This document shows, in pieces, positions 43,176 to 56,973 of a DNA stretch of 64,000 nucleotides. The position numbers and the translations under genes are program-made. The first letter of the stretch is position 1. Every line of letters starts with the position of its first letter. Source of the DNA: Thiogranum sp. (GTDB taxonomy: Bacteria; Pseudomonadota; Gammaproteobacteria; DSM-19610); contig JAGXGS010000032.1 of assembly GCA_024636585.1 (NCBI GenBank), positions 1 through 64,000 on the forward strand, given 5' to 3'. Under the pieces are notes generated by a model, which was not told where the DNA came from, searched no databases, and saw only the letters and a program-made list of their open reading frames with translations.

Positions 43176-45095
<1,920 letters not shown>

Positions 45096-45193
45096 GCGTT
45101 TCCGCTGGTAGTGCTGGCGGTCCTTGTTTCAAGTCTCTGTATCTCAAAAGAAAGGCGAGTTGCCTCAGGGTGAGGCGGGACGGGTAAGGGATT

Positions 45194-47743
45194 ATGGGCG
45201 AAATCGTCGTCAAACACTTCAAGCGCGCCAGCGCTAGCTCGGACGCCAAGGTGCTGGTTACTGAAATAGTCGTGGAAAGCTCGGATACGGGTCGTTTTCT
45301 GGATCGCCTGGAAGAGACCCGGATGATGCGCCCCTGTTTCCAGACACTCGATATGCGCGGCCGGGTTGCCGGAGAATGTCGTCCCTACGCCTTCAATGAT
45401 CGCATCCATTATCTCGATGACATTTCCTTTCAGATGTTCGAACGGGGGCTGAAGGAAAGCAACGGCATTTATACGGTCGGTACTTTCGAGGCCATTATGA
45501 GCGGCGTCCATACGTTGCAGGCTCAGGACGATGCGCGCGAGGCGGCGCAGCGCCGCCGCGAGGAAGTCGAGCAGCGGCGTCTGGAGCGCGTCAGGGCCGC
45601 GGCACTGGAGCGCGCCGATATGGCTGGCCGCGCCGATGTTCCCTCGGAGCACGATCTGGATGCGGAACTGGCCGGCAACCCACCAGTACTGCCACTCGGC
45701 TATTACCGTAAGCGGCAATATCCCCGCATGCAGTTCGCCTGTCCGGTGTCCCTGGAGAGCGGCAATATCAAGACTGCCGCCACAACACGTGATATTTCGG
45801 TTTCAGGCATTCAGGTGCGCATCAAAGGCCTGACCACTTTCAGGAAGGGACAGGAACTCCTGTTGTCTTTCACCGGCCAGTTGCCGGTGGAAACAGCTAA
45901 AAACAGCCTCGTCCGGATTCCTTATCGCATCGTTAGCAGTGAAGAGCGGGAAATCGAAACTGTTCTGAACCTGGTGCGAGTCGACGTCCGGCAGCCGCCA
46001 GGCGTTTCGACGGTTATCGAGGCGCTCATCGACAGTTGCCAACGCAAATACAAGCTCGATGTTGAAGACGAATATCAGTCGGTTTTGAGCTGGTACTATG
46101 AACGCTGTTATGCGCAGAGCGCGACATGCATTCCTTTTTTTGTGGAGGAGTCCGTTGAGTCCGGGCTGAAGGTGCGCTCGGTTGCAATCAGCGAAGGAAA
46201 TGCGCATCTGGCACGCTTTTTCTGTACTGACGAGGATAATTACAACTTCACTCCGGTTTGCCTGCCGGCACGCTTGCAACGGCTCGAGCAACAAAAATCT
46301 TTCCTGCTTGCCATGTACCGCGATCGCGGAGAACGTGATCAGTCTAATCGCATCCATTCCGCTGCTGATTTTGAATGTGCCTCACTGGCAGCGTTTGCGG
46401 ATTTTTCGCGCCACGCGCTCACCTATCCCGAGCATTGCGTCGTGAAAGTTCACGTGAGTCGGATACCGGCCGTGTCTGTGCCGGAGCAGAAGCTGGATGA
46501 GGTTTCGCAGCGATTGCAATACAAATCCGAAGAGAAGATGGTCGAGTTGCGAGGGCTGCTCAAACGACTGCATCTGGTGGGATATCTGGTTGATATTACC
46601 CAGAGCATCGGCGCGGGACCGGGCGCTCCCGGAGATAATGTGCCGGATGCTGAAATGGCGGCCTGGGTGGGGGGGGAGCGACGCCGGATCAGCGATCAGG
46701 CGGTCCTTGAAACGCTAAGCATTGACCCGGAGTTCCTGCGCCCGGAGTTGACCCGTCTGGGTTATGTCGAACGACGGCGCGAAGATCGCTATCTGGCGGA
46801 GACCAGCGTTGTAGTCAAAATCGGCTCGGAAACCAGCAGCGGCACTTCCAGGGATATATCAACACGCGGGATGCGGATTCAATGCGACAAACGTCTCGGT
46901 GCGCGCAAGGGTGCGACAGTCAAGGTCGGATTGATTTCGTTGCAACAGAAAAAAGCGGCAACCAATCTGATGGATATTGCTTACCGGGTGATTGACGCGA
47001 AAGATGAGGAGGACGGTACCCTGTTGATGCTGGAGAGGATACTGGGCAGCGCGCAGGAAGGTCTGAAAGAGTTTTTTGTCGAGTTGATTACCAAGAATCA
47101 GCATAAGCTTGGCGTGGATATCCATGATATATGGGGCGCCACGTCTTCCCGTATCTATGAGGCACTGTTGGCAATCAATACGCCGACGATTCCCCTGTTT
47201 CTTGCTCATAATGCTGATGGCGGTGCACACCTCCAGTACGTCGGTGTGCCGGAGTCGGGAAATCCTCTGATCGATTTTTTTCGCGTTACCGGGGGTTACG
47301 ATTTTTGCTGCCTGAATGAACGCCGCGTTGTCGGTGCGCTACACGATGCGGTGCAGATTCTGTCTCGCCAGAGTCGGGGTACCGGACAGCGACCGACCCC
47401 GTTCGAGATCGAACTGTATGTCTACAAGGAATACGACGCAGTTGTAAAAGAGACGTTTATCCATGCAGCAACGGAACTGGATTTTCCTGATCCGGCCGCG
47501 CGCCGGACGTTCCTTGAGAGATTGCCGGGCTATGATGACTGGCGCTGTATCAAAATTGTAGCCACTTCCATTGACCATCTCGATCAGAAAGTGCTCGACA
47601 AGATGACAGACCTGGTTCGGACCCATTCGAAACACCGGGCTCTCAAGCTCGCTGCGTTGGCGCAGTCCGTGGTCGGCTATGCGGAGCTGGTTGATATCTC
47701 GCCGGAGTGGTTGACCTTGCGTTCGCTGAATCCGGTTGGCTGA
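45194..47743 (+). CDS. Large tandem PilZ protein, probable c-di-GMP receptor with internal duplication
   Basis: An 849-aa cytoplasmic protein. Two PilZ domains each have both binding motifs: RQYPR (174-178) with DISVSG (200-205), and RREDR (528-532) with DISTRG (554-559). Each is followed by a similar region of about 200 residues; compare TCIPFFVE...VAISEGN (311-336) with TIPLFLA...VGVPESGN (665-690), and LVGYLVDIT (461-469) with VVGYAELVDIS (826-836). So a PilZ-plus-alpha/beta module appears duplicated. A charged helical, coiled-coil-like segment (112-145) precedes it. The location between parE and parC may be historical only. Function unproven. Confidence 0.85.
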   Translation: MGEIVVKHFKRASASSDAKVLVTEIVVESSDTGRFLDRLEETRMMRPCFQTLDMRGRVAGECRPYAFNDRIHYLDDISFQMFERGLKESNGIYTVGTFEAIMSGVHTLQAQDDAREAAQRRREEVEQRRLERVRAAALERADMAGRADVPSEHDLDAELAGNPPVLPLGYYRKRQYPRMQFACPVSLESGNIKTAATTRDISVSGIQVRIKGLTTFRKGQELLLSFTGQLPVETAKNSLVRIPYRIVSSEEREIETVLNLVRVDVRQPPGVSTVIEALIDSCQRKYKLDVEDEYQSVLSWYYERCYAQSATCIPFFVEESVESGLKVRSVAISEGNAHLARFFCTDEDNYNFTPVCLPARLQRLEQQKSFLLAMYRDRGERDQSNRIHSAADFECASLAAFADFSRHALTYPEHCVVKVHVSRIPAVSVPEQKLDEVSQRLQYKSEEKMVELRGLLKRLHLVGYLVDITQSIGAGPGAPGDNVPDAEMAAWVGGERRRISDQAVLETLSIDPEFLRPELTRLGYVERRREDRYLAETSVVVKIGSETSSGTSRDISTRGMRIQCDKRLGARKGATVKVGLISLQQKKAATNLMDIAYRVIDAKDEEDGTLLMLERILGSAQEGLKEFFVELITKNQHKLGVDIHDIWGATSSRIYEALLAINTPTIPLFLAHNADGGAHLQYVGVPESGNPLIDFFRVTGGYDFCCLNERRVVGALHDAVQILSRQSRGTGQRPTPFEIELYVYKEYDAVVKETFIHAATELDFPDPAARRTFLERLPGYDDWRCIKIVATSIDHLDQKVLDKMTDLVRTHSKHRALKLAALAQSVVGYAELVDISPEWLTLRSLNPVG

Positions 47744-47842: not shown

Positions 47843-50086
47843 ATGACTACCGATAGCAAGCTTGAGAATATAGAAACACTCCCTTTGCGCACCTATACCG
47901 AGAAGGCTTACCTGGATTATTCCATGTACGTCATTCTGGACCGCGCGCTTCCCCATATCGGCGACGGGCTGAAGCCGGTGCAGCGACGCATCGTCTACGC
48001 GATGTCGGAGCTGGGCCTGTCGGCGCGAGCCAAGTTCAAGAAATCGGCGCGCACGGTGGGTGATGTGCTCGGCAAGTTTCATCCGCACGGCGACAGTGCG
48101 TGTTATGAGGCGATGGTGCACATGGCGCAGGGTTTCTCGTTTCGCTATCCCTTGATCGATGGACAGGGCAACTGGGGATCGCCGGATGATGCCAAGTCCT
48201 TTGCGGCAATGCGCTATACCGAGGCACGCCTGGCGCCGTTCGCCGATGCGTTGCTATCGGAGCTGGGCGAGGGCACGGTTGACTGGGCTCCTAATTTCGA
48301 CGGCACGCTCAGGGAGCCGACGCTGCTTCCGGCGCGTCTCCCCGCAATATTGCTGAATGGCGCGACCGGAATCGCAGTCGGCATGGCGACTGATATCCCG
48401 CCACATAATCTGCGCGAGGTATCCAGCGCGGCAATTCACCTGCTGGAAAATCCGAAGGCGACGGTCGCCGACCTGTGCTCGCATATTGCCGGCCCTGACT
48501 ATCCTACCGGTGGTGAAATCATCACTCCGCGACAGGATCTGCTGCGCTGCTACGAGACTGGAAACGGCAGTGTGCGGATTCGTGCCAGATACGAGCAGGA
48601 AAATGGCGATATTGTCATCACCGAGCTGCCTTACCAGGTCTCCGGGGCCAGGGTGCTGGAACAGATCGCTGGTCAGATGGCGGCAAAGAAGCTGCCTATG
48701 GTTGCCGATCTGCGGGACGAATCCGATCATGAGAATCCTACCCGTCTATTAATTGTGCCGCGTTCCAGCCGGATCGAGGTGGAGCCACTGATGCTGCACC
48801 TGTTCGCGACCACCGACCTGGAAAAGAGCTACCGCATCAATTTGAACATGATCGGGCTGGACGGGCGTCCCGCGGTGAAGAACTTGCGCACGCTATTGGG
48901 TGAATGGCTGGAGTTTCGCGTCAACACAGTAACGCGGCGGCTCCAGTTTCGCCTCGACAAGGTGCGCGATCGCCTGCATATCCTCGATGGTCTGTTGGTC
49001 GCCTATCTCAATATCGACGAAGTCATAGCGATTATCCGTTCCGAAGATGAGCCCAAGCCGGTGCTGATGCAGCGCTTCAGTCTCAGCGATCGCCAGGCGG
49101 AAGCCATCCTTGATCTGAAACTGCGTCACCTCGCCAGACTCGAGGAAACCCGAATCCGCGCCGAGCAGAAAAAATTGAGCGAGGAGCGCGAAAAGCTCGA
49201 AAAGCTGTTGGCGTCGCCAAAGCGTCTGCGCACTCTGGTGCGCAAGGAGATCGAGGCGGACACCGAAACATTTGCCGATGAACGTCGCTCGCTGATGGTG
49301 GCAAGAAGCGCCGCCCAGGCGCTCGATGAAACAGAACTGGTGCCAAGTGAGCCGGTAACCATCGTTCTGTCGGAGAAAGGCTGGATCCGTTCAGCCAAAG
49401 GGCATGAAATAGATCCCTCGAGCCTCAGTTACAAAGCCGGTGACGCTTTTAAGGCCGCAGCATTCGGACGCAGTAATCAGCAGGTCGTTTTCCTCGATTC
49501 GACCGGTCGCGCCTACACGCTGGCGGCGCATGGATTGCCGTCGGCGCGCGGGCAGGGTGAGCCACTTACGGGCCGGTTCAGTCCCCCGGATAACGCAACT
49601 TTTGTTGGCGTGATGACCGGGGATCCGGATCGACTGTATCTGCTGGCAACCGATGCAGGCTATGGGTTTATCGCCCGGCTAGGTGATCTGGTTGCACGGA
49701 CCAGGAGCGGTAAAACGGTATTATCGGTGCCAAAGGGTGCGCGGGTGCTTGCGCCCGCACCGGTGATTAATCCGGAGACGGATCTCATCGCTGCAGTTAA
49801 TGCGCAAGGGCAGTTGCTGGTGCTTCCGGCATCCGAAATCCCTCGCCTGAACCGGGGAAAGGGCATCAAGATTCAGGGTATCAGCGCTGCAAAACTCGCT
49901 TCTCGAGAGGAGTTCATGGTGGGCATCGCCAGCGTGCCGAGCGATGGATCACTGGTTATCCAGGCAGGCAAACGGCATCTGCGCCTGAAGCCGGCAGATC
50001 TCGATCCTTACCGCGGGGATCGCGGTCGCAAGGGAAACAAATTGCCGCGCGGTTTGCAGCGCGTCGATGGGATATATGCTGAATAG
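47843..50086 (+). CDS. parC: DNA topoisomerase IV subunit A
   Basis: DNA-cleaving subunit of topoisomerase IV. The 747-aa protein has the catalytic Tyr125 in [10 protein letters not shown], the winged-helix region [13 protein letters not shown], and a C-terminal beta-pinwheel domain. In the quinolone-resistance region Ser85 and Glu89 match the usual susceptible residues. It is preceded by the tandem PilZ gene and followed by htpX. Confidence 0.97.
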
Positions 50087-51120: not shown

Positions 51121-52353
51121 ATGCCTTTGATTCGACCCTTTGCCGGCCTGCGTCCGGCTACCAGCCGTGCCGACGACGTGCTAGCCCCGCCTTATGATGT
51201 CCTGAACAGTGATGAAGCGCGCCAGCGCGCCGAGGGTCGACCATGGAGTTTTCTGCATATCTCCAAAGCGGAAATTGACTTGCCGGCTGGCACCGATCCC
51301 TATGATCCTGCTGTGTATGCGAAGGCGGCGGAAAACCTGCAGACAATGATTGCGCAGGGGATACTGATACGTGACGATGAATCCTGTTATTACGTGTATC
51401 GCCTCACCATGGGCGACCATGTGCAGACGGGCCTGGTTGCTGCGGCATCAGTCACCGATTACGACAGTAATCGGATCAGAAAGCACGAATTTACCCGACC
51501 TGCCAAGGAAGACGATCGCGTTCGACAGATCGAGGCATTAAATGCCCAGACCGGCCCGGTACTACTGGCTTACCGGTCGCAGCCGGATATCGATCAGTTG
51601 CTTGCGACCGTGACCACAGCGACGCCGGAATATGATCTCAAGGCTGACGACGGTGTCGGCCATACGTTCTGGGTGGTGCGGGACCGGGCGCTTATCGAAC
51701 AGCTGAGCAACGGGTTCGATAGTATGGACGCTCTCTATATCGCCGACGGGCATCATCGCTCAGCGGCTGCATCTCGCATTGCAGCCGCGCTGGGTCGTCA
51801 GCCCGAGGCCATGAGCAATTATTTCCTGTCGGTTATATTCCCTCACAATCAGATGAAAATCCTCGACTACAACCGGGCGGTTAAAGACCTGAACGGTTTG
51901 TCAGCTGGCCAGCTGCTGGAGAAGGTCGCCATGGCGTTTGATGTCAGGGAAGAGCAGGGCGCGTATGCGCCTGCGCAGCCCGGTGAATTCGGCATGTATC
52001 TGCAGGGGCGGTGGCATCGCCTTGTTATTCATCCCGATCTGGTGCCGGAGGATCCGGTTGCACGCCTCGACGTCAGCCTGCTCGCCAGTCACCTGCTCGA
52101 GCCGGTGCTTGGTATCAGTGACCCCCGTCGCGATCCCCGTATTGACTTTATTGGTGGTATCCGAGGTCTGGGTGAGCTGGAAAAGCGGGTTGATAGCGGT
52201 GAGATGGCGGTGGCGTTTTCGATGTATCCGACCAGCATGGATGATCTGATGGCGGTGGCGGACGCCAATGAGGTGATGCCGCCGAAATCAACCTGGTTCG
52301 AGCCGAAGCTGGCTGACGGGCTGATTTCCCATGTGCTCGACGACGATCGCTAA
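51121..52353 (+). CDS. DUF1015-family protein
   Basis: A 410-aa cytoplasmic protein of the DUF1015 family, opening with MPLIRPFAGLRPATSRADDVLAPPYDVL. The conserved IADGHHRSAAASR segment carries a Gly-His-His-Arg like the GxHR motif of ParB/sulfiredoxin-fold phosphotransfer enzymes, and some DUF1015 relatives have been linked to serine phosphorylation; here the activity is unknown. GYRP-like and KHEFTR segments are also typical. It ends overlapping the last four bases of convergent fimX. Confidence 0.85.
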   Translation: MPLIRPFAGLRPATSRADDVLAPPYDVLNSDEARQRAEGRPWSFLHISKAEIDLPAGTDPYDPAVYAKAAENLQTMIAQGILIRDDESCYYVYRLTMGDHVQTGLVAAASVTDYDSNRIRKHEFTRPAKEDDRVRQIEALNAQTGPVLLAYRSQPDIDQLLATVTTATPEYDLKADDGVGHTFWVVRDRALIEQLSNGFDSMDALYIADGHHRSAAASRIAAALGRQPEAMSNYFLSVIFPHNQMKILDYNRAVKDLNGLSAGQLLEKVAMAFDVREEQGAYAPAQPGEFGMYLQGRWHRLVIHPDLVPEDPVARLDVSLLASHLLEPVLGISDPRRDPRIDFIGGIRGLGELEKRVDSGEMAVAFSMYPTSMDDLMAVADANEVMPPKSTWFEPKLADGLISHVLDDDR

Positions 52354-54437
52354 GCAACCTCACCCGAGAAATCATAGTTCAAAGCTTCGCTGGGTTCCTG
52401 CAGGAAATTGCCCTGGATATAGTCGATGCCGCTCTGCCAGAGTACCGCGAGGCTATGCGCGTCCTGGACATATTCCGCTATACATTCCTTGTTCATTGAA
52501 CTGGCCGTATCGAGGATTGACTTGACCGTCGCCTGGTTATCATTGTTGGTCGCCAGGTTGTGTATAAAGGAACCATCGATCTTGAGGAAGTCTACTGGCA
52601 GGTGCTTTAGCAACTGGAAGGAATTGGCCCCGGCACCAAAGTGTTCAAGCGCAATCTTGCAATGCAGTTGCTGAAGTGTCTTGACAAAGACTTTTGCATG
52701 TTTCAAATGCTGGGCGGCTTCTTTTTCAGCGATCTCGAATATCAGCGCATCGCCAGGCAGGCGGGATTCTTTCAGGCAGTCATGGATAAAACCAACCAGC
52801 TTTTCATCCAGCAGTGTGGAGCCGGAAATCTTGATGAAGAATTGTGTTTCGACGCCCTTGGCACGATGCTCGGCCAGGGCGTCGATCGCATGTCGGAGTA
52901 CCCATCGGTCGATTTCGACCAATTGCCCGGTGTGTTCGGAGATGGACAGGAACTGCGAGGGCAGAATATGCTCTCCTTCATCATTGAGCATGCGCAGCAG
53001 TACTTCATATTTTTCACCACCGGCGCCCTGCAGGCTGACAATGGGCTGGAAGAGCAGCTGGAACTGATCTTTTTCCAGGGACTCCTTGATCAGCGTGTGC
53101 ATTTGCTGATCGCGCTCCTTGCCGATCTTCTCGTCGACAACCGGGTTGTGAACATGAATTCTGTTGCCGCCGGCTGAACGGGCAACTTCACATGCCAGAT
53201 CGGCGCGTGATATCACTTCGTGTGAAGATGGTGTGCTTTCGGCAACACAGCTTATCCCTACACTGCAGGTTGTTGTGATCGACTGGCCTTCTGATTCAGT
53301 AATATGATGCTCGACCACCGCGCGGAGTTTTTCGCCCAGTTGCTGAAAGGAGTCTACGTCGCACTGTTTGCGCAGAATCGTGAACGAATGGTCACCAAAA
53401 CGCGCAACAATGTCATCATCTGATGTGTGTTCGCGAAGCAGTTCAGCAATGTCGCGGATAACAATATCGGCTACACCGATACCTACTTTGTCCTTGATCT
53501 CCTTGAAGTTGTCCATCAGCAGGTAGAGCACGGCCGAGCTGCTTGAACCGTTGATCGCATCAGTCACGGCCAGCTCCAGTTCCTCCATGAAATACTGGCG
53601 ATTGAACAGGCTGGTAAGCACGTCCTGCTTGCTCAGATACTTCAGCTTTTGTTCCAGTTCCCGGTTTGATGCGCCCTGGCTGCGGATGATGATTTGAGTG
53701 CATGGCTCACCGTCGATGCTGGCAAGCATGAATTCCATCTGCGCATCGAACTGCTTGCCGTCGGGCAGCATGCCGTGTGTTTCCAACTGGCCGTTCTGTT
53801 CATCATCCTTGCCGTAGTTGCGCAGAAACTCCTTGAACGTGGCATGATCTTCCGGCGCTACCATGTCAAGTATTGGAGTGCCTTCAATTTCTTCCAGGCT
53901 GTCGAAGCCGAACATTTCAAGATAGGAACTGTTGGCGAAAATGTGCATTCCTTCGTGCACATAAGCGATTGCATCACGGGAGCTGGCCATTAACAGGCGG
54001 GCACGTTTTTCGCTTTCGTGAAACTTCAGCTCGAAGCTTCGTGCGTTCTGGCAAGCCTTGAGCTGGGACAGCTCACGCCGCACGACCAGTTGAAGGTGGT
54101 CTGGCTGGTCGTAGGAACAGAGATCGCTGGCGCCATCGCGCATGGCTGCAATGGTGGCGACTTCATCAGCTGATTCACCGACTGCAATGATAGGAATGTG
54201 CAGCTGACGTTGTTCCAGCAACAAGGTGACATCCGTCAGTTGAATCGTACTCAGGCCCGTTGCACACAGGAGCAGGTCAGGAACCTGTTTCTCCAGAAGG
54301 TCTTCCAGATCCTCCAGATCCTCCGCATAACTGAGCCTTGATGCTTGCCCGGCATTTCTCAGAATATTGGCGAGAGCTTCAGCATCGTTGCGGGATTCCT
54401 CGATGACGAGTAGTCGCAACGTTTGATCCATGTCCAT
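52350..54437 (-). CDS. fimX: FimX-like degenerate GGDEF-EAL c-di-GMP effector (REC-PAS-GGDEF-EAL)
   Basis: A 695-aa cytoplasmic protein; FimX of Pseudomonas is about the same size and controls type IV pilus assembly. The domains are a receiver-like domain (1-125) without the phospho-Asp, PAS (145-255), GGDEF (265-430) reading FGDHS near 347-351, and EAL (445-690) reading EVL at 478-480. The metal-binding DDFG is EHFG, so neither synthesis nor hydrolysis of c-di-GMP is expected; binding is. The start is either ATG at 54437 or 54431; an open extension to 54551 lacks a ribosome site. Nearby parC/parE recalls the Pseudomonas order. Confidence 0.88.
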   Translation of the reverse strand: MDMDQTLRLLVIEESRNDAEALANILRNAGQASRLSYAEDLEDLEDLLEKQVPDLLLCATGLSTIQLTDVTLLLEQRQLHIPIIAVGESADEVATIAAMRDGASDLCSYDQPDHLQLVVRRELSQLKACQNARSFELKFHESEKRARLLMASSRDAIAYVHEGMHIFANSSYLEMFGFDSLEEIEGTPILDMVAPEDHATFKEFLRNYGKDDEQNGQLETHGMLPDGKQFDAQMEFMLASIDGEPCTQIIIRSQGASNRELEQKLKYLSKQDVLTSLFNRQYFMEELELAVTDAINGSSSSAVLYLLMDNFKEIKDKVGIGVADIVIRDIAELLREHTSDDDIVARFGDHSFTILRKQCDVDSFQQLGEKLRAVVEHHITESEGQSITTTCSVGISCVAESTPSSHEVISRADLACEVARSAGGNRIHVHNPVVDEKIGKERDQQMHTLIKESLEKDQFQLLFQPIVSLQGAGGEKYEVLLRMLNDEGEHILPSQFLSISEHTGQLVEIDRWVLRHAIDALAEHRAKGVETQFFIKISGSTLLDEKLVGFIHDCLKESRLPGDALIFEIAEKEAAQHLKHAKVFVKTLQQLHCKIALEHFGAGANSFQLLKHLPVDFLKIDGSFIHNLATNNDNQATVKSILDTASSMNKECIAEYVQDAHSLAVLWQSGIDYIQGNFLQEPSEALNYDFSGEVA

Positions 54438-54646
54438 GTGCTGGAATTTCTCCTGTTGGGTTCCATGAGCTGGAATGATGGCAGCGCGCCAACCTGTTTC
54501 GGCATTGACGTCAGGAATCTTTACCCTTGTAGCCGTGTCTTTGACCAGCATCTGCCGGTTTTCTCAGCGCTTTTCCGAACAGTGATTTCCTGCTAGCATC
54601 GCAGCTAAGATCGCTCGAGTTTGCTGAACAGCCAGGAATCGGATAT

Positions 54647-55179: not shown

Positions 55180-56973
55180 TCAGATAAGCTCCCAGACATC
55201 GTCAAAATCGCTCGATTTAAAGCCTTTTACCGCTTTCACAGATTTAGTCTGTGGGATCTCACCCAGTGAGCAAAACTGGAACTGAGCGAAGCTGCCAGTG
55301 TTTTCCACAAGTTTTGTCAGCTTTATCCGGATATCTTTCCCGTGGCAGTTGACCCTGACATTATCCCCGGTCTTGAATGGCGGCGATGACAGCAGCATGG
55401 TCGCTTTTTGCTGAATTGAAGCAACTTCCGGCAACAACAGGCCGCGCACATAATCCTCATCGGTTTTCTGACGGCCATCGAGTTGAGCTGCGACTGCAAC
55501 AGCGCCAGGCGATAACATCTGGACGCCGAGTTGCAATCCCTCCTTTTCAGCGAACTTCAACCAGCGCGTCACCCCAAGGCGCCAGTGAAATGTGTCCGGA
55601 TCGCTTTGTTCACGTATGCCCAACAGTTCGCCAACCTGCGAGCGGGTGGTTTCGGGATTATCCCACAACAGGCAATAGCCGCCAGCACTGACATTGACCA
55701 TTTTCCAGCTGTGAGTGCGGTGGTTGGTATCTATTTGCAAACCGGATGTTGCGCTGGTGGCTTCGGGATTCTCCGGATCGACCGCAGCGGGGATGAAGGC
55801 ATTGATGTCCCAGACATCCGGGGTTTTTCCGCCGGTTTCTCTGGCCTGAAAATGTGCGCGGTCCTGCAGGCGGGGGCGCTGGGCGGCGCCCTGACTGGTG
55901 GTATCGGTGAGGGTGTAGTTTCTCTTGTCACTGAAAGCGAATTCGCCACTGACGAAATAGTGGATGGAACTGAGCCCTGTGGCCACGATGATCTGTGAAT
56001 GCTCGGCGGTCCGGGAGTACCGGCGTTTGGGCATGATGCCCCAGGTCAGCATCATGTGTTTCAATGCGCTGGTACTGATCTTGCCGGCGCCGGTCATTGG
56101 AGTACCGGAGGTTCGGGATGCAGAGAGTGCCGCGCGCACCTGCTCGGCAAGCTGTGCAGTATTCAGGACCCGGCAGGTACTGCGATTTTCATTAGCATCG
56201 CGTAGAACCAGATAGGTGGGCGGCTGATCTGTATCAAGGTTGGTGCAAAAGAGGCCGGCACCGTTTTCTCCGATCAGCCCCAGCTTTGCATAGGGCGCCC
56301 ATTTTTCCAGCAGGTCATATACGATTGCCGCTTCGCCGTGACGCAGGCGGTAAGGACAGGCCAGGGCGAGCAGAAGAATCTGCTTGTAGTTATCTGCAAT
56401 TGTCGACAGCGTTTCGCTCGAAGCAAACTCATCCGTGACCTCTCGTGTGTGCAGGCGATTACTTTCCGCGTGACGGTAAATGGAATGGATTTCTAGCCAC
56501 ACCGTCTCCGGATAGGGTTCATAAACCTGGCATGCCTTCAGTAGCACCTGTCCCTGTAGCTTGATTGCCCTTTGCATGCAGGTGACGAGTAATTTTTTGT
56601 CGTCGCGCGCGACACCGGCAATCTGCTCCATGACGAGTATTTTATAGCCGGTTGCGAGGACCCGGATGAGTTCTCGGGAAAGACGGGCAATTTTCAGGTT
56701 TTTCTCGGCGAGCGGGAGCGGCTTTCCGACGAAGTGCCGAGTCATGTTCTCGGAGACGAAAGTCACTGGTTTGCGCAACAGCTCGAGCGCCTTGAAGCGC
56801 TGTTGGGCGGGAATATCCTGGTGGTTCAGTTCAGTCAGTGCAGTGAACAGCAGCCGTGCAGTTGCTCCGATATTCGCCATCGGAAGGTGCTCGATCCACT
56901 GTTTGACCTGATTCGGAGTGCTATCAAATGATCCCTTCTTTGGAATCATTCGATCGGGTACTGAAAGCCGCAT
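55180..56973 (-). CDS. Protein of unknown function with PilZ-like C-terminal motif
   Basis: A 597-aa cytoplasmic protein. The first 400 residues are mostly helical with no known motif; the C-terminal part holds WKMVNVSAGGYCLLW, in which NVSAGG (427-432) fits the second PilZ signature, followed by FHWRLGVTRWLKF. The first signature (RxxxR) is not clear. Similar large proteins in pseudomonads (PA2989-like) are counted among PilZ proteins, so c-di-GMP binding is plausible. AGGGA precedes the ATG. It is downstream of epmB but separated by a likely terminator. Confidence 0.75.
   Translation of the reverse strand: MRLSVPDRMIPKKGSFDSTPNQVKQWIEHLPMANIGATARLLFTALTELNHQDIPAQQRFKALELLRKPVTFVSENMTRHFVGKPLPLAEKNLKIARLSRELIRVLATGYKILVMEQIAGVARDDKKLLVTCMQRAIKLQGQVLLKACQVYEPYPETVWLEIHSIYRHAESNRLHTREVTDEFASSETLSTIADNYKQILLLALACPYRLRHGEAAIVYDLLEKWAPYAKLGLIGENGAGLFCTNLDTDQPPTYLVLRDANENRSTCRVLNTAQLAEQVRAALSASRTSGTPMTGAGKISTSALKHMMLTWGIMPKRRYSRTAEHSQIIVATGLSSIHYFVSGEFAFSDKRNYTLTDTTSQGAAQRPRLQDRAHFQARETGGKTPDVWDINAFIPAAVDPENPEATSATSGLQIDTNHRTHSWKMVNVSAGGYCLLWDNPETTRSQVGELLGIREQSDPDTFHWRLGVTRWLKFAEKEGLQLGVQMLSPGAVAVAAQLDGRQKTDEDYVRGLLLPEVASIQQKATMLLSSPPFKTGDNVRVNCHGKDIRIKLTKLVENTGSFAQFQFCSLGEIPQTKSVKAVKGFKSSDFDDVWELI

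Follow-up and report, generated by a model that had tools for sequence, protein, structure and literature searches.

A tandem PilZ protein family of Gammaproteobacteria with two conserved c-di-GMP motif sets and a tentative link to flagellar motility

The locus and the layout of the protein

The window considered here is the whole stretch of 64,000 nucleotides that was analysed, namely positions 1 to 64,000 of contig JAGXGS010000032.1 from a Thiogranum sp. genome (assembly GCA_024636585.1). At 45194–47743 on the forward strand, it contains one open frame with an ATG start that encodes a tandem PilZ protein of 849 residues. The gene lies on the same strand as its two neighbours, parE (topoisomerase IV subunit B, 43209–45095, read by sequence from the list of open reading frames) with a gap of 98 bp upstream, and parC (topoisomerase IV subunit A, 47843–50086, assigned from the same list and from neighbourhood comparison) with a gap of 99 bp downstream. 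Directly past the parE stop, a hairpin followed by a T-rich stretch (45102–45120) is terminator-like by consensus only, and it may uncouple the PilZ gene from upstream transcription or attenuate read-through.

The protein is organized as an N-terminal domain, a helix, a first PilZ domain (PilZ1), a first domain of a type called X here (X1), a linker, a second PilZ domain (PilZ2), and a second X domain (X2). The N-terminal domain (residues of about 25–110, 45266–45523) is specific to the family, while the long helix that leads from it to PilZ1 (residues 105–143, 45506–45622) is predicted by a low-confidence full-length model and is poorly conserved in sequence. PilZ1 (residues 165–265, 45686–45988; Pfam PF07238) carries the two sequence motifs of c-di-GMP binding, RxxxR as R174-QYP-R178 (45713–45727) and DxSxxG as D200, S202, and G205 (45791–45808). 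It is followed by X1, an unnamed alpha/beta domain (residues 268–473, 45995–46612) identified by self-comparison and profile matching. PilZ2 (residues 519–616, 46748–47041), recognized by Pfam PF07238, by a PilZ search of the genome itself, and in an AlphaFold2 model of half the protein, again has RxxxR (R528-RED-R532, 46775–46789) and DxSxxG (D554, S556, and G559, 46853–46870), and X2 closes the protein (residues 622–843, 47057–47722; self-comparison, half model, and profile match).

The Pfam search of the 849-residue frame returned exactly two PilZ stretches (E 1.6e-19, 70.5 bits against a cut-off of 22.5), and neither a GNAT acetyltransferase nor the PilZN/YcgR domain was matched in it. When nine diverse members of the family were compared with Pfam and NCBIfam, PilZ alone was named, and the N-terminal and X domains had no confident match. 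Searches of the PDB by sequence with full-length, X, and N-domain profiles found nothing, with no match for the N-domain below E 0.1.

Further along the window, the fourth gene downstream encodes a FimX-like protein of 733 residues with receiver, PAS, GGDEF, and EAL domains (52350–54551, reverse strand), and elsewhere in the genus, too, a gene of this type is found close to parE, the PilZ gene, and parC. Close to it, a protein of 597 residues (55180–56973, reverse strand) has no confident Pfam match; its C-terminal segment NVSAGGYCL resembles the second PilZ motif, and judged by sequence it is possibly a divergent PilZ protein. The strongest PilZ match in the genome of the window (L001) is an FHA-PilZ protein of 327 residues on contig C60.

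Duplication, structure, and range of the family

A preliminary description of this DNA held that the protein arose by internal duplication, with the same domain placed after each PilZ domain, and both points were borne out. The N-terminal part (residues 1–515) and the C-terminal part (residues 516–849) align over 328 residues at 24% identity (BLASTP E 2e-20; phmmer E 5e-20). With the PilZ domains left out, residues 276–490 and 626–849 align with a score of 103, compared with 30 ± 4.8 for shuffled sequences (z = 15; none of 500 shuffles reached 103). Similarity is therefore present outside the PilZ domains, the point on which the description had staked the duplication in a self-alignment, and the duplication stands. 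The profiles of the family agree, since X1 matches X2 with a probability of 99.9% (E 2.2e-31) and PilZ1 matches PilZ2 at E 8.9e-28, whereas the N-domain profile matches neither PilZ nor X in profile–profile comparison. Sequence comparison thus strongly supports the duplication, within the protein, of a unit made up of PilZ and the domain after it, and the N-domain and helix, which the preliminary description did not mention, fall outside the duplicated part. Of the paired segments it had cited, GYLVDIT and GYAELVDIS do align, with a gap of two residues, while SEGN and ESGN lie one residue out of register. Its statement that both PilZ copies keep both c-di-GMP signatures is correct and extends to the family as a whole.

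The PilZ2-X2 half was modelled with AlphaFold2 from 16 sequences with fair confidence (pLDDT 79.6), and it shows a PilZ barrel joined to an alpha/beta domain (X) of about six strands and several helices; the full-length model was poor (pLDDT 55, eight sequences) and was left out of the fold search. This search retrieved PilZ structures, nearly all over 90–170 columns, the best being MotI/DgrA (E 2e-5), a c-di-GMP flagellar regulator whose match spans the PilZ part only. There was no credible fold match for X, and the earlier admission that the domain after PilZ cannot be named still applies, given that Pfam, NCBIfam, and PDB sequence searches gave nothing significant and the fold search reached the PilZ part alone. 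A GAF identity for X was considered and set aside, as phytochrome (GAF/PHY) matches had TM scores of about 0.15–0.2 and probabilities below 0.4.

Homologues occur in 16 of the 19 other genomes sampled from the GTDB order of the window, with Thiogranum and Thiohalobacter metagenome-assembled genomes as the named relatives, and when the copies of 15 of these 16 genomes were aligned with that of the window, every motif residue was kept. More broadly, 29 of 369 sampled genomes of Gammaproteobacteria, spread over many families, contain family matches. A phylum sample of 399 genomes added about 27 strong matches from the same class, in frames of 780–880 residues; outside Gammaproteobacteria it gave weak matches only, confined to the PilZ part. 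In an alignment of 45 near-full-length members, each with two PilZ-X units, 43 first and 45 second PilZ copies retain all five motif residues, the exceptions being two genomes of family f3 whose first copy reads D-A-A, with loss of the serine and glycine. The most conserved region is the N-domain, with a mean pairwise identity of 36% over 20 representatives, compared with 24–28% for PilZ (24.1% for PilZ1 and 27.7% for PilZ2) and 19–22% for X; its near-invariant positions are C/DMRGKV/C/DD/FTVG-E. Among the sample genomes it occurs in this tandem family only, and it is missing from the one full-length member of family f98 (L086). A search of 274 genomes with the X profile also gave matches in the tandem family only, every complete gene having two copies, except that two f3 genomes list one match each.

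A quick tree of the separated halves set nearly all second halves off from the first halves as one group with support 95, the only misplaced half being a long-branched first half from f78. The simplest reading of these sequences is a single duplication that preceded the spread of the family, and since the family has a wide range in Gammaproteobacteria and keeps the tandem form in nearly all cases, the duplication is taken to be old, probably older than the sampled radiation. The alternative that it is a recent oddity of the genome of the window is ruled out by the same age. A literature search of limited reach found no published description of proteins with the order N-[PilZ-X]x2, which apparently form a widespread and unstudied bacterial family.

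The gene context varies by lineage. The order parE-[tandem PilZ]-parC is found in the GTDB family of the window and in two others (f1, f122, and f83 together). In 22 genomes of another group (f139, f184, f193, f194, f199, and f203), the gene adjoins a divergent radA, and in 21 of these serB is convergent with it; such loci often continue with a membrane-protein gene and deo genes (all names read from sequence), and in several, another, small PilZ gene flanks radA on its far side (e.g., L079 and L154). The remaining loci have varied contexts with unrelated neighbours. In four of the loci examined (L071, L072, L073, and L075), the tandem gene is followed by a small conserved protein (cluster 22) that by eye resembles MbcA/ParS/Xre antitoxins. 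Across the lineages examined there is no constant operon partner, so that any partner is probably encoded elsewhere, and in no locus examined does the gene lie inside a flagellar cluster.

Association with flagellar genes

A FliG_C match, used as a marker of flagella, was found in 193 of the 369 Gammaproteobacteria genomes. Among genomes at least 90% complete, fliG is present in 22 of 22 with the tandem gene and in 153 of 291 without it (p 1.5e-6), the latter set including three genomes with broken copies (G053, G116, and G380). For the entire sample the figures are 24 of 26 and 169 of 343 (p 7.7e-6); both tests treat related genomes as independent, include no control PilZ protein, and draw on few cases of loss. 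Of the two genomes that have the tandem gene but no fliG, G204 (81% complete) does contain flhA and fliD, and in the phylum sample all 12 further family-positive genomes have fliG. Since about half of the genomes without the gene are flagellated, the gene is not required for flagella.

At a completeness of at least 90%, 25 genomes match the family, 22 with fliG (among them G366, whose gene has one frameshift, and G086, whose gene is cut by a contig end) and three without. In these three, G053, G116, and G380, all near-complete, searches for FliG, FliM, FlhA, FliF, and FliD gave no match, and each has a broken tandem gene. The copy of G380 has an internal deletion of about 380 residues together with stops, that of G116 is half a gene with a stop, a remnant near a contig end, and that of G053 has three frame changes, which could in principle be sequencing errors, while the neighbouring genes read as intact frames. 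With G366 counted as broken, although it has fliG, all three fliG-negative genomes fall within the four broken copies among the 25, for which the chance probability is 4/2300 = 0.0017. G053 keeps a full-length pilM, and has thus lost its flagellum while retaining type IV pili; in G380 pilM is itself broken, and in G116 the sole pilM match is weak.

An exception that counts against the flagellar link is the genome of the window (83% complete, 93 contigs), where the gene is intact and there is no match to FliG, FliM, FlhA, FliF, or FliD, which a missing contig could explain, or the species could be without flagella. In the tree of halves, the second half of the window protein sits on a terminal branch (0.34) longer than any other in its genus, and this could reflect relaxed constraint after flagellar loss.

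Proposed function, competing readings, and known systems

The best-known receptors of c-di-GMP are PilZ proteins. In their known structures, the RxxxR motif is part of the hinge that precedes the barrel, and binding of c-di-GMP draws the preceding domain against PilZ. The tandem protein very probably binds c-di-GMP, and with both sites conserved over many families, two functional sites are likely; such conservation has no bearing on the cooperative response that the preliminary description had suggested. We infer a mechanism in which c-di-GMP would bind each RxxxR hinge, before PilZ1 (after the helix) and before PilZ2 (after X1), and would clamp what precedes it (the N-domain and helix in one case, X1 in the other) against the PilZ barrel, in the manner of YcgR/PlzD-type proteins. 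This would re-orient the N-domain and both X domains and expose or hide a surface for a partner. One chain would hold two switchable joints, with the N-domain and X as the parts that putatively bind a partner, and its output would most likely be flagellar motility. Because both the presence and the decay of the gene track the flagellum, the protein is probably a motility regulator, and our preferred reading, to which we assign a probability of about 0.45, is a cytoplasmic effector with two PilZ sites for c-di-GMP, built from one old PilZ-X duplication and the N-domain, that most likely acts on flagellar motility. A more ambitious version, in which the family would be a second flagellar c-di-GMP effector class in Gammaproteobacteria, unrelated to YcgR and giving a sharper response than single-site brakes through two full sites and two copies of the output domain, is rather doubtful.

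Flagella and c-di-GMP proteins may co-occur for reasons of lifestyle, and it is conceivable, if less probable, that the protein is a general c-di-GMP effector with another output (transcription, polysaccharide, or RNA/DNA binding as in PlzA/MrkH), the flagellar link reflecting a motile, c-di-GMP-rich lifestyle. The absence of a partner gene conserved throughout, with neighbours that vary by lineage, would fit such a role, as would an X and an N-domain devoid of known relatives that would indicate the output; against it, broken copies in genomes that have no flagellar markers are a more specific signal than lifestyle alone would give, but there are just three such cases. An effector of type IV pili or surface motility that works with the neighbouring FimX-like protein seems unlikely. 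The FimX-like gene recurs near the locus in the genus of the window and almost nowhere else (weak matches in L068 and L160), and a PilM match in 32 of 33 family-positive genomes is weakly informative, because PilM is common and control matches in E. coli, B. subtilis, and others suggest that its model picks up further actin-like proteins as well; G053, moreover, keeps pilM while its tandem gene is broken.

The parE-PilZ-parC order in three families (f1, f122, and f83), together with the close spacing in the window (about 100 bp on either side), invites the idea that the protein couples c-di-GMP to topoisomerase IV, and we reject this as very improbable in view of the radA-serB location in another large group, the unrelated neighbours elsewhere, and a decay that tracks flagella. 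The sites themselves might also be unequal, one binding c-di-GMP and the other serving as a structural pseudo-copy, which is compatible with any output. The slightly higher conservation of PilZ2 (27.7 versus 24.1% mean identity), the loss of serine and glycine from PilZ1 in the two f3 genomes, and the unequal roles of the sites in PixB of Myxococcus (PMC8316039) lean that way; retention of all five motif residues in 43 of 45 first copies speaks against it, and we regard this inequality as unlikely. V. cholerae PlzA (VC0697), which keeps its motifs yet was negative in DRaCALA (PMC4624772), was considered as a possible relative.

By architecture, the tandem protein is a PilZ protein that is neither a YcgR-type brake nor PixB. 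The effectors YcgR, FlgZ, PlzD, and MotI share with it the RxxxR hinge after an N-terminal domain and, as proposed here, the flagellar link, but they have one canonical PilZ domain in about 220–260 residues and an N-terminal domain that is PilZ-like, whereas the family of the window has two canonical PilZ domains, and neither its N-domain nor X matches PilZ by profile. PixB of Myxococcus xanthus, which binds c-di-GMP and acts on motility and development, is likewise a cytoplasmic protein with a pair of PilZ domains; it differs in its C-terminal GNAT acetyltransferase, in having no X repeats or N-domain described, and in PilZ domains that lack the serine of the second motif (PMC8316039). PlzA of Borrelia also has two PilZ-related domains in tandem (xPilZ-PilZ), but its first copy is a degenerate xPilZ, and the protein is small and without an X domain (PMC10333796). 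The leptospiral YcgR combines PilZ with an extra alpha/beta, GAF-like domain (GAZ), which is inserted within the N-terminal PilZ domain and does not follow each PilZ (PMC11800159).

Every tandem PilZ protein for which we found a description has degeneration in one copy or in both, and a widespread family with two complete sites and two unnamed domains is therefore a good case for two-site reading of c-di-GMP. If the flagellar link is true, many environmental Gammaproteobacteria would have an extra motility effector, and the hosts include complete genomes of 4–5 Mb in which genetics should be easy. Among the annotated PilZ proteins of Shewanella putrefaciens, none is reported to resemble YcgR, FlgZ, or MotI, and none, including Sputcn32_2813 and Sputcn32_2815, had been studied in detail according to the paper on MotL (PMC8203827). 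These two PilZ genes lie one gene apart, which would fit the arrangement [tandem PilZ]-radA-[small PilZ], and by gene order, the only feature compared, they may include a member of the tandem family.
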